Position numbers and translations under genes: made by a program | NCBI GenBank assembly: GCA_030550775.1 | Contig: JAUQOS010000009.1 | Span: forward strand, 1 to 47,976 | Source: Armatimonadota bacterium | Lineage (GTDB): Bacteria; Armatimonadota; Fimbriimonadia; Fimbriimonadales; GBS-DC | Length of the DNA: 47,976 nucleotides | Reading direction: 5' to 3' | The notes under the pieces: model-generated | Databases searched by the model: none | What the model was told of the DNA's origin: nothing | What the model saw: only the letters and a program-made list of their open reading frames with translations | Shown here: one piece after another, positions 26,231 through 30,999 of the stretch | Layout: every line of letters starts with the position of its first letter | Position numbering within the stretch: the stretch's first letter is position 1

Positions 26231-26964
26231 GATTCGGGCAGCATCGACAGCCAGAGCGTGCCCTCGGCGTCTATCGCCACCTCTATCTGCCCAAGACGCC
26301 ATAACTCCAGCATTGCCAAGAAAGAGACAAGCAGGTCCATTCGGTCGTGGGCTTCGGCGGCGAAGGTGTCAAACGGAAGCGGCTGCGTGGCTTGATGCAG
26401 GCGAGCGCGAATCAGTGCCATGCGCGCGTGCAGCGAAAAGTAGCGTCGGTGTGGAATGGCAGTGGGTGGGGGCGTTTGACGCTCCAATAGGCGTTTGAAC
26501 GCCAGCCATAGCTGGTCGGGCAGCTCCGCACCGACGGGGGCGGGCGGCTCGTACGCGCGCGGATCAACCGTGCCCCCCCGGTAGTAGAGCTGGGCGCGTG
26601 CCTCCTCACGCTCGCGTAGCCATTCCACCAGCCGACGATAGGTCTCGGGCAAAGTGACGGGGGTAAGCGGTTCGTGGGCTTCTTCCGGCTCTGGCTCTGG
26701 GGGCGGGGCAAGCAGTTGTTGTGCTTTGCGCTCAGCCAGATACGCCATCACCGCCACGGCATCGGCTGCCTCATCTAAATCGCCCACCTCGCGCCAATAC
26801 TCATAACACGCCTGCGCTACAGGCGCAAGGTCAATCGTTAGCAAGTCTAACTTGTGCTTGCGTATTAGGTGTACCAGCCAGCCCAGCGAGCCGAACCCCA
26901 GCGGTAGTTGCAACGGTACGCGCGGCGGCGCCCACTCTGGTGAACCGATATGAAACCGACGCAC
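26227..26964 (-). CDS. scpA: Segregation and condensation protein A
   Basis: The kleisin subunit of the SMC-ScpA-ScpB condensin that organises and separates chromosomes. 245 residues. The N-terminal block LGWLVHLIRKHKLDLLTIDL and the AVMAYLAERKAQQLL helix match ScpA. The middle is acidic/Pro-rich and the C-terminal winged helix covers about 175-245 (FLAMLELWRLGQIEVAID). GTG start, six bases after a TAGAAT box. The usual partner scpB is not adjacent. The upstream region is shared with pilT. Confidence 0.88.
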   Translation of the reverse strand: MRRFHIGSPEWAPPRVPLQLPLGFGSLGWLVHLIRKHKLDLLTIDLAPVAQACYEYWREVGDLDEAADAVAVMAYLAERKAQQLLAPPPEPEPEEAHEPLTPVTLPETYRRLVEWLREREEARAQLYYRGGTVDPRAYEPPAPVGAELPDQLWLAFKRLLERQTPPPTAIPHRRYFSLHARMALIRARLHQATQPLPFDTFAAEAHDRMDLLVSFLAMLELWRLGQIEVAIDAEGTLWLSMLPES

Positions 26965-26970
26965 GCGCCG

Positions 26971-26976
26971 ATTCTA
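26971..26976 (-). promoter_or_regulatory. -10 box of scpA (leaderless)
   Basis: Reads GGTAGAAT on the minus strand, six bases before the GTG start at 26964. Confidence 0.5.
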
Positions 26977-27056
26977 CCCCGCAAAATCACAGTAAAGTTT
27001 TGCCTCGCTACTGCCCAAAATACTCTCGGTTCGAAACCTTACTGAGGGGGTTGACG

Positions 27057-28238
27057 ATGGAACAACACTTCGATTGGCGCAAACTGGTGGGGCTGGAACC
27101 CAGCGAGGAAGACGAACCAGCGACCGCCCAGGCCAGCGATGTCACCTTACAAATCGCGGGCGAGGAGCAATCGGTGGAAGATGTCACCATTGACGACCTG
27201 CTGCGCCAGTGCGTAGAACGCGGCGGTTCCGACCTGCACCTGACGGTAGGGCTACCCCCTACCATCCGCCTCAACGGGCACCTCACACCCTTGCCTTATA
27301 AGCCCCTCACGCCCCACGACACCCGTCGCCTTGTCTACGAAGCACTCAGCGACCAGCAGCTGGAACAGTTCGAACGCCACCACGAACTTGATTTCGCCTA
27401 CACCGTCAAGGATGTCGCGCGCTTCCGCTTCAATGTCTACATGCAAAAGGGCGCCGTCGCTGCCGCGATGCGCGTAATCCCCTCGCGCATTCCTTCCATC
27501 GAATCGCTGCGCCTGCCCTCAGTCATCTACGAGGTGGTCAAAAAGCACAGCGGCTTGGTGCTGGTGACAGGTCCCACAGGATCGGGCAAGTCAACCACGC
27601 TGGCGTGCATGATTGACCTCATCAACCAGACCCGCCCGTGCCACATCATCACCATCGAAGACCCCATTGAGTACATTCACACGCACAAGCGCGCAATGGT
27701 GAACCAACGCGAGGTCCACACCGACACCGAAAGCTTCCACAATGCCTTGCGCGCAGTATTACGCGAAGACCCCGATGTGATTCTCATCGGCGAGATGCGC
27801 GACTTGGAGACTATCCAAGCGGCACTGACCTTAGCTGAAACGGGGCACTTGGTGTTCGCTACCCTGCACACGCGCAACGCTCCGCAAACGATTGACCGTA
27901 TTATTGATGTGTTCCCGCCTCACCAACAAGAGCAAATCCGCGTCTTGCTCGCAAATACCATTGAGGCGGTGTTCGCGCAGCAACTGATACCGATGATTGG
28001 GGGCGGGCGCGTTGCTGCCGTGGAGGTAATGATTGCCAACGCCGCTATCCGCAACCTCATCCGCGAGGGCAAAACCCACCAGATTTACTCAATCATGGAA
28101 ACCCACTCATCGCAAGGCATGATTACGATGGATCGTGCCTTAGCCGACCTACACCGCAACGGCTACATCAGCTACGAGGAAGCCGTCAATCGCGCGATGG
28201 ATCGCGAGAACTTCGTACAACTACTCAAAGCTGCGTAA
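27057..28238 (+). CDS. pilT: Type IV pilus retraction ATPase PilT
   Basis: A hexameric secretion-type ATPase that retracts type IV pili, giving twitching and DNA uptake. 393 residues: an acidic N-terminal extension (about 1-45), PilT N-domain (DLLRQCVERGGSDLHL), Walker A GPTGSGKST (172-180), Asp box, Walker B-like VILIGEMRD, His box ATLHTRNAPQTIDRIIDVFP and the C-terminal AIRNLIREGKTHQI. The frame is open 112 codons further upstream but that part overlaps scpA; GAGGGGG before the ATG at 27057 fixes the start. pilC follows after 12 bases. Confidence 0.93.
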   Translation: MEQHFDWRKLVGLEPSEEDEPATAQASDVTLQIAGEEQSVEDVTIDDLLRQCVERGGSDLHLTVGLPPTIRLNGHLTPLPYKPLTPHDTRRLVYEALSDQQLEQFERHHELDFAYTVKDVARFRFNVYMQKGAVAAAMRVIPSRIPSIESLRLPSVIYEVVKKHSGLVLVTGPTGSGKSTTLACMIDLINQTRPCHIITIEDPIEYIHTHKRAMVNQREVHTDTESFHNALRAVLREDPDVILIGEMRDLETIQAALTLAETGHLVFATLHTRNAPQTIDRIIDVFPPHQQEQIRVLLANTIEAVFAQQLIPMIGGGRVAAVEVMIANAAIRNLIREGKTHQIYSIMETHSSQGMITMDRALADLHRNGYISYEEAVNRAMDRENFVQLLKAA

Positions 28239-28250
28239 GGAGGCGCAACA

Positions 28251-29462
28251 ATGCCACTGTTTGGCTACGAAGCGGTTGACAACAAGGGGCGCACCCTCAA
28301 AGGCACTATTGAAGCCGACAACGAGCAGCTGGTGCTGTCTAAGTTGCACGAGCAGGGGTTGCATGTGGTGCGCATCGAGCCGCAGCGCGAGCGCGTGTCG
28401 CCCCTGCGCCGCCTGCGCCGTGCCCAAAAACCCAAACTCCAAGCACTGGTGGTGTTCACGCGCCAATTCGCCACCATGATCGACGCAGGCATTCCTATCC
28501 TGCGCTGCTTAGACATCCTGCACAACCAAACCAAAGACCCCGCCCTCAAACAAGCACTGGACAGCATCCGCAAGGATGTCAAGTCGGGCATGTCGCTCAA
28601 CGAGGCGATGGAGAAGCACCCACTGGTGTTCTCCGACCTGTTTGTGAATATGATTCGCGCTGCGGAGGTGGCAGGTATCTTAGACCAAATCCTCGACCGC
28701 CTTGCCACCTTCCTTGAGAAGGATTTGGAAGTGCGCCAAAAGGTCAAATCCGCCATGATGTACCCCGTGATGGTGTTGGTGTTCTCGTTTCTGGTGCTGG
28801 TGGCGATTTTTATGTTCGTGCTGCCGAAGTTCAAGGAGATCTTCGCTAGCGTGAACGCCGAGATGCCCGCAATGACGATGATGCTGTTTAGCATAAGCGA
28901 TTTTGTAGTGGGCTACTGGTGGGCGATGGCGGGCTTTGCAATCGGTATGCTGATGGTGGTGCGTGCCTACATCCGCAAGCCAAAGGGGCGCTATCAGTAC
29001 GACTATCTTAAGCTCAAGCTGCCGATTTTCGGCGACTTGGTGCTCAAGCTGGCAGTGGCGCGCTTTGCACGCACTTTCGGCGTGCTGATTGCCAGCGGCG
29101 TGCCGTTGATGCGCACGCTGGAGATTGTGGGGCAAACCTCGGGCAATCGCGTGCTGGCAACGGCTATTGAGAACACCCGCCACAGCCTGCGCGAGGGGCA
29201 ACCGCTCAGCACGCCCTTCGCTGCCACAGGGCTGTTTCCTGCGATGGTCATCCACATGATGGATATCGGCGAAGAATCGGGGCGGCTGTCGGAGATGATG
29301 GTCAAGATCGCCGACTTCTACGAGCAAGAAGTGGACGCTACTATCAAAGGGCTGACCTCTATGATTGAACCGCTGCTGATTGTGTTTTTGGGCGGTATCG
29401 TGGGCTTCATTGCGATTTCAATTATGCTGCCGATGTTCAAACTCGTCAGCGCGATTCAATGA
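28251..29462 (+). CDS. pilC: Type IV pilus inner-membrane platform protein PilC/GspF
   Basis: The membrane platform that couples PilB/PilT ATPases to pilus assembly. 403 residues. The N-terminal cytosolic part starts FGYEAVDNKGRTLKGTIEAD. Two GspF domains follow (about 70-195 and 270-395), each with the family pattern: FTRQFATMIDAGIPILRCLD and FARTFGVLIASGVPLMRTLE. Three membrane spans lie at about 170-190, 215-240 and 375-395. AAGGAGG precedes the ATG. It is in one operon with pilT, and the sigma-GGDEF gene follows on the same strand. Confidence 0.93.
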   Translation: MPLFGYEAVDNKGRTLKGTIEADNEQLVLSKLHEQGLHVVRIEPQRERVSPLRRLRRAQKPKLQALVVFTRQFATMIDAGIPILRCLDILHNQTKDPALKQALDSIRKDVKSGMSLNEAMEKHPLVFSDLFVNMIRAAEVAGILDQILDRLATFLEKDLEVRQKVKSAMMYPVMVLVFSFLVLVAIFMFVLPKFKEIFASVNAEMPAMTMMLFSISDFVVGYWWAMAGFAIGMLMVVRAYIRKPKGRYQYDYLKLKLPIFGDLVLKLAVARFARTFGVLIASGVPLMRTLEIVGQTSGNRVLATAIENTRHSLREGQPLSTPFAATGLFPAMVIHMMDIGEESGRLSEMMVKIADFYEQEVDATIKGLTSMIEPLLIVFLGGIVGFIAISIMLPMFKLVSAIQ

Positions 29463-29709
29463 GAATGCCAAGTCTCTTTGTCCGCATAGCTGTGGCGTCC
29501 GCGCGACGCGGACGCCCCGTCGGCGAGGATGCCGCGTTGCTCGGCCCAGCGCCAAAGTCCGTACACGCTGCGCGGAGCTTTGGATGCACCACGCGGATCT
29601 CACTGCAAGCCGCACCGAAGTCCGTATGCGTTGGGCGGAGACCGTATGAACCGCGCGGACATCTGCGCAGCACACAAGGAGGCATACACGGCTCAGGAGG
29701 AGCACAACG
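29463..29709 (+). promoter_or_regulatory. 247-base structured leader before the sigma-GGDEF gene
   Basis: Contains a perfect hairpin, GGCGTCCGCG (29494-29503), loop CGA, CGCGGACGCC (29507-29516). Also an imperfect direct repeat: about 47 bases starting AAAGTCCGTACACGCTG at 29554 and GAAGTCCGTATGCGTTG at 29617, 63 bases apart. Each copy keeps GCGGAG and a C-[AG]-CGCGGA core. A ribosome site (CAGGAGGAG) precedes the ATG at 29710. No protein-coding frame is convincing. The repeats could be regulator sites or remnants of a dispersed repeat. Confidence 0.5.
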
Positions 29710-30999
29710 ATGCTAAAACGCGACACGGAGGAGTTAGTGCGAGAGTATTGCCAAACGCGCGACGTAGAACTGCGCGACGCCATCGTGTTGCAGCTGTCGG
29801 GGCTGGTGGAAAGTATCGCACGAAAGTTTCTCGGCTCTGGCGAACCGCTAGAGGACCTCATCCAGGAGGGTTATCTAGGGCTGCTGAACGCGCTTGATTT
29901 GTTCAACCCCGAAAAGGGCGTCAAGTTCACCACCTACGCCACGCACCTTATCGTGGGGCAAATCAAGCACTACCTGCGCGACAAGGGCAAAATCATCAAG
30001 GAACCCGCGTGGCTACAGGAACTCAACAGCAAAATCAACCGCGTCATCAACGAACTCAGCGCCCGCTACGGACGCCCTCCCACCACCCGAGAGATTGCTG
30101 AGTTTTTGGGCATGACGCAAAAAGCCATCGAGGATGTGCTGATGACCCGCGAGGTGTTCAAAGTCAGCTCGTTGGATGCCATTTACGAAGACGACGAGGA
30201 CGAGTGGCAAAACTACGACCTTGAGAAGCTCAACTGCGAGCCGTGCCAGACCTTCAACTTGCCGATTGAGGAGCGCGTGGTGGTGGAGACCGCGATGCAG
30301 AAACTCAAGGAGATTGAGCAGCGCGTGCTGCATCTGTTTTTCAACGAGGGCTACAACCAGACCGAGATTGCGCATATGCTCAAAATCTCGTGCAACTATG
30401 TATCGCACATCCTGCGCAACGCCACGCAGAAGTTGCGCCGAATCATCAGCGAGGCGGAGTGGTTAGACGAGCAACGGTTCCGCGCCCGTGCGCTGGAGCG
30501 TGGCGACTTCGAGGCGCGGATTTTAGACCCTCAGACGCGCCTGTTTTCAGCAGACTATTTGGTAGTGCGTTTGCGCGAGGAAGTGCAGCGCGCGGCACGC
30601 TACGACCACAGCGTGGGCTTTGCGATTTTCGAGTTTGTGGCAGAGAAGCGTACGCTGGACGCCTTGGGCGAGTTTGCGATGGGCGAGTTGCTGTTGCAGG
30701 CGGCAGCGGTGGTGCGCGAATCGGTGCGCAAGGCGGACATCGTAGGGCGTTATGGCTTTGCGATGCTGGGCGTGGTGATGCCCTACGCGGGCGAGCACGC
30801 CCCCAAAATCGCCGAGCGCGTGGCAAACGCCTTGCGCGAATGGCTCACCACTGTCTTCAGCCCGACCATGAGCCAACGCTTCCACGTCCACTACGGCTGG
30901 GCATACTACCCCAACGACAGCGAGGACCACGAAAACCTGCTGCGCCAGTCTGAGCAACGGTTGATCGCACAGCGTGCCCAACTCCAACAGGTAGCCTAA
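29710..30999 (+). CDS. SigB/SigF-type sigma factor fused to a degenerate GGDEF domain
   Basis: 429 residues. The N-terminal 245 are a complete alternative sigma factor: region 2 (LIQEGYLGLLNALDLF, then VKFTTYATHLIVGQIKHYL), region 3 (AWLQELNSKINRVINEL, PPTTREIAEFLGMT) and region 4 with HTH TEIAHMLKISCNYVSHILR from 218. It most resembles Bacillus SigB/SigF/SigG. The last about 160 residues have GGDEF-domain layout: DPQTRLFSADYLVVRLREEV from 273, then a last strand HVHYGWAYYPND. The active-site loop is GFAML (349-353) instead of GGDEF, and the metal-binding Asp block is lost, so no cyclase activity is expected. RKAD (340-343), five residues before the loop, matches the RxxD inhibitory site that binds c-di-GMP. 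Inference: a sigma factor that senses c-di-GMP directly. It lies after pilT-pilC. Confidence 0.85.
   Translation: MLKRDTEELVREYCQTRDVELRDAIVLQLSGLVESIARKFLGSGEPLEDLIQEGYLGLLNALDLFNPEKGVKFTTYATHLIVGQIKHYLRDKGKIIKEPAWLQELNSKINRVINELSARYGRPPTTREIAEFLGMTQKAIEDVLMTREVFKVSSLDAIYEDDEDEWQNYDLEKLNCEPCQTFNLPIEERVVVETAMQKLKEIEQRVLHLFFNEGYNQTEIAHMLKISCNYVSHILRNATQKLRRIISEAEWLDEQRFRARALERGDFEARILDPQTRLFSADYLVVRLREEVQRAARYDHSVGFAIFEFVAEKRTLDALGEFAMGELLLQAAAVVRESVRKADIVGRYGFAMLGVVMPYAGEHAPKIAERVANALREWLTTVFSPTMSQRFHVHYGWAYYPNDSEDHENLLRQSEQRLIAQRAQLQQVA

Follow-up and report, generated by a model that had tools for sequence, protein, structure and literature searches.

Can an alternative sigma factor respond to the second messenger c-di-GMP by itself, through a receptor domain that is part of the same polypeptide? 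The question is raised by one gene in a 47,976-nucleotide stretch of DNA (the window) from a Fimbriimonadales MAG of the Armatimonadota. The genome is 2.43 Mb in size and 97% complete, and its closest named relatives are likewise Fimbriimonadales MAGs of this phylum. The original prediction held that the gene joins a sigma factor to a degenerate GGDEF domain on which c-di-GMP would act directly. The gene and its sigma part are as follows.

29710..30999, + strand: sigma factor-degenerate GGDEF fusion gene (ATG start; 429 aa; coordinates include the stop codon)
29788..29991, + strand: sigma-70 region 2, residues 27-94 (Pfam PF04542, Sigma70_r2, E 1.8e-19)
30019..30189, + strand: sigma-70 region 3, residues 104-160 (Pfam PF04539, Sigma70_r3, E 4.2e-11)
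30292..30438, + strand: sigma-70 region 4, residues 195-243 (Pfam PF04545, Sigma70_r4, E 2.8e-15)

Regions 2, 3 and 4 all score above the Pfam gathering cut-offs, as expected for a member of the sigma-70 family. The best NCBIfam match, and the nearest sigma subfamily, is TIGR02980 (SigB/SigF/SigG; E 3e-52, residues 20-244), but the score of 177.8 bits is below the curated cut-off of 234.35 and does not suffice for membership of the subfamily. The sigma factor is complete, as claimed in the original prediction, in that all three regions are present. By its profile matches, residues 1-245 are an alternative sigma factor of the SigB/SigF type with a best match below the family cut-off. The SigB/SigF/SigG group is under the control of anti-sigma proteins of the SpoIIAB/RsbW type, and no such protein was recognised in the four genes next to the fusion gene (pilT, pilC and two oxidoreductases). 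No close paralogue of the fusion protein was found in its own genome, where sigma and GGDEF matches otherwise fall on different proteins.

The remainder of the protein was compared with the diguanylate cyclase PleD (sequence verified with the PDB entries), with an alignment of 79 members of the fusion family (Neff 65 at 80% identity) and with 72 canonical GGDEF domains from Armatimonadota.

30523..30981, + strand: degenerate GGDEF domain, residues 272-424 (Pfam PF00990, E 6.3e-16; Foldseek matches)
30754..30768, + strand: GFAML, residues 349-353, at the site of the lost GG[DE]EF catalytic loop (GG[DE]EF in 0/79 members)

The GGDEF-layout domain predicted after about residue 270 passed the HMM test (59 bits against a PF00990 cut-off of 23.8). 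A Foldseek search with the domain model retrieved GGDEF structures, several of them c-di-GMP-bound (GcbC, WspR, DgcR and PleD). Confidence in the structure models is low (pLDDT 64 for the full-length protein and 69 for the domain); they contain no ligand and cannot support docking. The predicted details of the active site also proved accurate: the loop reads GFAML, RKAD (340-343) lies five residues ahead of it, and the metal-binding block is gone, with E, L, G and A at the positions of D327, N335, D344 and E370, the residues for metal and substrate in PleD. The window protein thus fails the requirements for an active diguanylate cyclase, as its loop and metal/substrate residues are all replaced. 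Every canonical domain has D327, N335, D344, G369, E370 (as D or E) and E371, and most or all fusions have lost them. From these replacements we conclude that the GGDEF domain of the fusion is catalytically dead. Two early-branching members (L118 and L120) retain D327/N335/D344, which indicates that the domain descends from a real cyclase.

The allosteric c-di-GMP site of PleD comprises R359, D362 and R390 of one GGDEF domain and R313 of its neighbour, with a c-di-GMP dimer bridging the two (PMC7288161); the same kind of cross-link is found in DgcR (PMC8041772). The equivalents of all these residues were identified in the window protein.

30589..30591, + strand: R294, equivalent to PleD R313 (secondary I-site arginine; 79/79 of the family, 23/72 canonical GGDEFs)
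30727..30738, + strand: RxxD motif R340-K-A-D343, equivalent to PleD R359/D362 (primary I-site; 79/79)
30817..30819, + strand: R370, equivalent to PleD R390 (primary I-site; 75/79)

In a domain with a mean conservation of merely 43% over the 79 members, R294, R340 and D343 are the only invariant residues, and R370 is conserved at 95%. The RxxD motif was predicted to be kept in orthologues, and it is, in every aligned member down to about 32% identity. However, this alone cannot count as sufficient proof of ligand binding and was rejected as such: RxxD is also present in 65/72 canonical Armatimonadota GGDEFs, which makes it weak evidence, and its retention could be partly structural. What carries the argument is R294, together with the four-residue set and the loss of the catalytic residues. 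R294 increases from 32% in canonical domains to 100% in fusions, and all four I-site residues occur together in 75/79 fusions versus 18/72 canonical domains (Fisher 2e-20). With R340, D343, R370 and R294 in place, the protein qualifies at the sequence level as an I-site receptor, without binding data. The helix that carries R294 also carries R287, E290 and E291 (30568-30570 and 30577-30582), which show 97-98% weighted conservation in fusions; R287 is found in just 34 and E290 in just 22 of the 72 canonical domains. These three residues may form a dimer or sigma contact.

The fusion is not peculiar to this genome. Full-length orthologues with 38-86% identity are present in all five families of Fimbriimonadales examined, and a profile built from 22 of them, applied at E <= 1e-50, matched 208 of the 291 genomes of the phylum Armatimonadota. 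Matches between 1e-50 and 1e-77 were at first counted as fusions but are mostly plain or short sigma factors, which reduces the count from 208 to about 185/291 genomes. The same fusion, expected in related genomes, thus occurs across the order and the phylum and is not a product of chance. In a tree of the sigma part, all fusions fall into one clade (support 100/99) and the plain paralogues into another. Nested within the fusion clade are two short sigma factors of family f17 (L189 and L190) that appear to have lost the GGDEF domain. From this topology we infer that the fusion probably has a single origin, early in the Armatimonadota, and regard it as an ancestral feature found throughout the phylum. 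In L189 and L190 a short basic tail takes the place of the GGDEF domain, and three fusion-clade sigma factors of family f6 (L186, L187 and L188) have a very diverged C-terminal domain. Outside the Armatimonadota, no fusion was found at 1e-60 in a sample of 399 genomes from the phylum to which locus L051 (a record titled Ruminococcus) belongs, and a plasmid search returned sigma-only matches, none covering 80% of the query. As only that phylum and plasmids were sampled, restriction of the fusion to Armatimonadota is not shown.

Where c-di-GMP synthesis is absent, the fusion is nearly always absent too. At a threshold of E <= 1e-25, which leaves out the fusions themselves, we identified no GGDEF domain in 28/291 genomes. 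The fusion is present in one of these 28, versus about 184 of the 263 genomes that have another GGDEF domain (Fisher 3e-12; the counts take related genomes as independent, which they are not). The sole exception (G097) is a MAG with a completeness of 64%. Fusion and GGDEF are missing together in separate lineages (within g8; g19; g67; g84; g130/g131; f10; f32), the relatives of which mostly carry both GGDEF and fusion, and one 99% complete genome (G026) lacks GGDEF, HD-GYP and fusion alike. The genome of the window encodes three strong GGDEFs and has five HD-GYP matches. Five near-complete Fimbriimonadales genomes (G111, G120, G122, G123 and G125) have several GGDEFs and no fusion, as do other genomes of the phylum. 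Thus, c-di-GMP signalling does not need the fusion, and the dependency is one-way.

Direct action of c-di-GMP on the sigma factor, the central claim of the original prediction, is supported by these results but remains an inference that is not shown, as there are no binding data. The inference is made stronger by retention of the four-residue I-site in a domain that has lost catalysis and by absence of the fusion where c-di-GMP synthesis is absent.

The extreme C-terminus is a further conserved element; like the linkage to pilC described below, it went unnoticed in the original prediction and bears on the mechanism.

30991..30996, + strand: C-terminal -Val-Ala (-Ala-Ala in most orthologues), a putative ClpXP degron

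The fusions end in Ala-Ala in 68/79 cases and in Val-Ala in 4/79, including the window protein, compared with a background of 14/662 neighbouring ORFs (2.1%) for Ala-Ala. Entropy is 0.56 and 0.79 bits at positions -1 and -2 and 3.4-3.8 bits at -3 to -8. Confinement of low entropy to the last two positions indicates that the terminus as such is under selection. ClpXP degrons depend chiefly on Ala-Ala (PMC7652416), and LVA is an ssrA variant in use (PMC9382460). The organism's own tmRNA tag is ANTNYALAA, ending in LAA, and a gene for ClpX with its zinc finger is present. Sigma-AntA of Streptomyces, a sigma factor without an anti-sigma, is a precedent: ClpXP degrades it via a C-terminal Ala-Ala (PMC7142297). 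The conserved C-terminal Ala-Ala-COOH that defines ssrA-class degrons is found in the fusion family, without degradation data.

We consider it probable that the fusion protein is a one-component c-di-GMP-responsive sigma factor, although binding, dimerisation, polarity, proteolysis and the regulon are all inferred. Other roles for the domain are conceivable. It could be a protein docking module that ties the sigma factor to a diguanylate cyclase, a phosphodiesterase or an anti-sigma, its I-site kept mainly for fold or dimer contacts and not for ligand. The GGDEF domain of Streptomyces RmdB does bind sigma-WhiG directly, in competition with RsiG (PMC13232838), and the family-specific R287, E290 and E291 on the helix of R294 could provide a contact surface. 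Docking alone does not, however, account well for the four ligand-contacting residues being among the most conserved polar positions of so variable a domain, or for the rise of R294 from about a third of canonical GGDEFs to all fusions, and we regard this role as unlikely. That the domain is no more than a functionless remnant of an accidental read-through fusion is scarcely credible. The lost catalytic site, the variable sequence and the f17 lineage that dropped the domain from within the fusion clade would all fit such an origin. But full-length frames remain open in about 185 genomes, unlike in neutral decay, and three residues are invariant within an otherwise strongly diverging domain; this conservation pattern contradicts the remnant explanation, which we reject.

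A mechanistic alternative within the one-component explanation is that c-di-GMP works mainly via stability: ligand would hide or expose the C-terminal Ala-Ala, and ClpXP would set sigma abundance in place of promoter blocking. This is possible, but we do not favour it. The sharp fall in entropy at the last two residues, the LAA ending of the tmRNA tag, the presence of ClpX and the turnover of sigma-AntA all point this way, and PopA, an I-site GGDEF protein of Caulobacter, directs CtrA to ClpXP (PMC12564702). There are no degradation data, however, and the most divergent members (L118-L120 and L123-L125) lack -AA yet keep the I-site; the degron is thus not required for retention of the domain.

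The gene neighbourhood provides an indication of the function of this one-component sigma factor.

26721..28238, + strand: pilT-type type IV pilus ATPase gene (TIGR01420, E 6.6e-149, over the cut-off; the true start is probably further in)
28251..29462, + strand: pilC/gspF-type gene for an inner-membrane protein of type IV pili, next to the fusion gene on its 5' side (NCBIfam PilC/GspF, E about 1e-122)
29691..29703, + strand: GCTCAGGAGGAGC box that includes the Shine-Dalgarno sequence (no variation among 11 upstream regions aligned for the fusion family)

Of 61 loci drawn from across the phylum, 39 have pilC immediately 5' of the fusion gene and in the same orientation, and three more have a divergent pilT-pilC pair beside it. 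Among these loci, pilC is not next to the fusion gene in families f12, f13, f14 and f19. In Rubrobacter, a switch of WhiG, RsiG and c-di-GMP controls type IV pili (PMC8325347), so that the logic of messenger, sigma factor and pilus would be the same with a different receptor. An AGGAGG box is located a few bases 5' of the ATG of the fusion gene, and the GCTCAGGAGGAGC box is invariant although the remaining intergenic sequence varies in the 11 aligned upstream regions. No c-di-GMP riboswitch or other Rfam family was identified in the window. In 13/25 loci versus 12/278 control ORFs (Fisher 7e-10), a hairpin with at least 7 bp of stem and a GGA loop lies no more than 110 nt before the start. These hairpins belong to Fimbriimonadales loci (e.g., L137, L145 and L016), are not evident in the window (29463-29709) and resemble CsrA binding sites. 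CsrA (PF02599) is encoded in 29/31 relatives. The hairpin sequences suggest that translation of the fusion may be under CsrA control.

In the one-component mechanism that we propose, the N-terminal 245 residues would guide RNA polymerase to promoters of their own, probably including promoters of genes for type IV pili or the cell surface. The GGDEF domain at the C-terminus would synthesize no c-di-GMP and would act as its receptor. An intercalated c-di-GMP dimer would be bound by R340, D343 and R370 in one protein chain and by R294 in another, as in product-inhibited PleD, and this bridging would dimerise or clamp the sigma factor. At high c-di-GMP the sigma factor would most likely be kept off RNA polymerase; this polarity is a guess by analogy with RsiG only and could be reversed. 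The C-terminal -Ala-Ala would make the protein a ClpXP substrate, and the pool would turn over without a partner anti-sigma. We offer only tentatively the larger idea of an ancestral one-protein circuit found throughout the phylum, in which c-di-GMP cross-links the sigma factor via the I-site and sets ClpXP turnover via the built-in degron, with the gene inside the pilus operon that it governs and its translation perhaps tuned by CsrA.

The c-di-GMP motif of RsiG is E(X)3S(X)2R(X)3Q(X)3D, and it occurs in none of the 79 fusion proteins. WhiG-RsiG likewise places an alternative sigma factor under c-di-GMP, with type IV pili as the output in Rubrobacter (PMC8325347), but there the ligand is held by the coiled coil of a separate anti-sigma, whereas in the fusion the GGDEF domain is in the sigma polypeptide. 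PopA and PelD resemble the fusion in combining a dead catalytic site with an RxxD kept as c-di-GMP receptor (PMC12564702), but they are not sigma factors, and they act as proteolytic adaptors or in the export of exopolysaccharide. The product-inhibited diguanylate cyclases PleD, WspR and DgcR have the fold and I-site residues in common with the fusion, but are active enzymes, whereas the fusion has lost the catalytic residues and has a sigma factor as partner domain. Sigma-AntA, a ClpXP substrate with a similarly conserved C-terminal Ala-Ala (67/71 orthologues; PMC7142297), is a Streptomyces ECF sigma without a fused sensor domain and is not known to answer c-di-GMP. The parts are thus known (PopA/PelD I-site effectors, RsiG control, AntA degron), but the literature searched contains no case of all of them in one polypeptide. 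No description of a sigma-GGDEF fusion was found in the open-access literature, in agreement with the original prediction, which was not aware of a described system of this kind.

The known link between c-di-GMP and a sigma factor requires a separate anti-sigma protein and was described in actinobacteria. In the fusion, the receptor for the messenger appears to be built into the sigma factor itself, in a different phylum and again with type IV pili. If this is true, it would be a second, independently evolved way of wiring c-di-GMP to promoter choice, and would suggest that the coupling of c-di-GMP, sigma factor and pili evolved more than once. A switch of this kind, with a single gene and a single ligand, would also be compact and open to testing, and would offer a way into gene control in the Armatimonadota, where few regulators have been studied.
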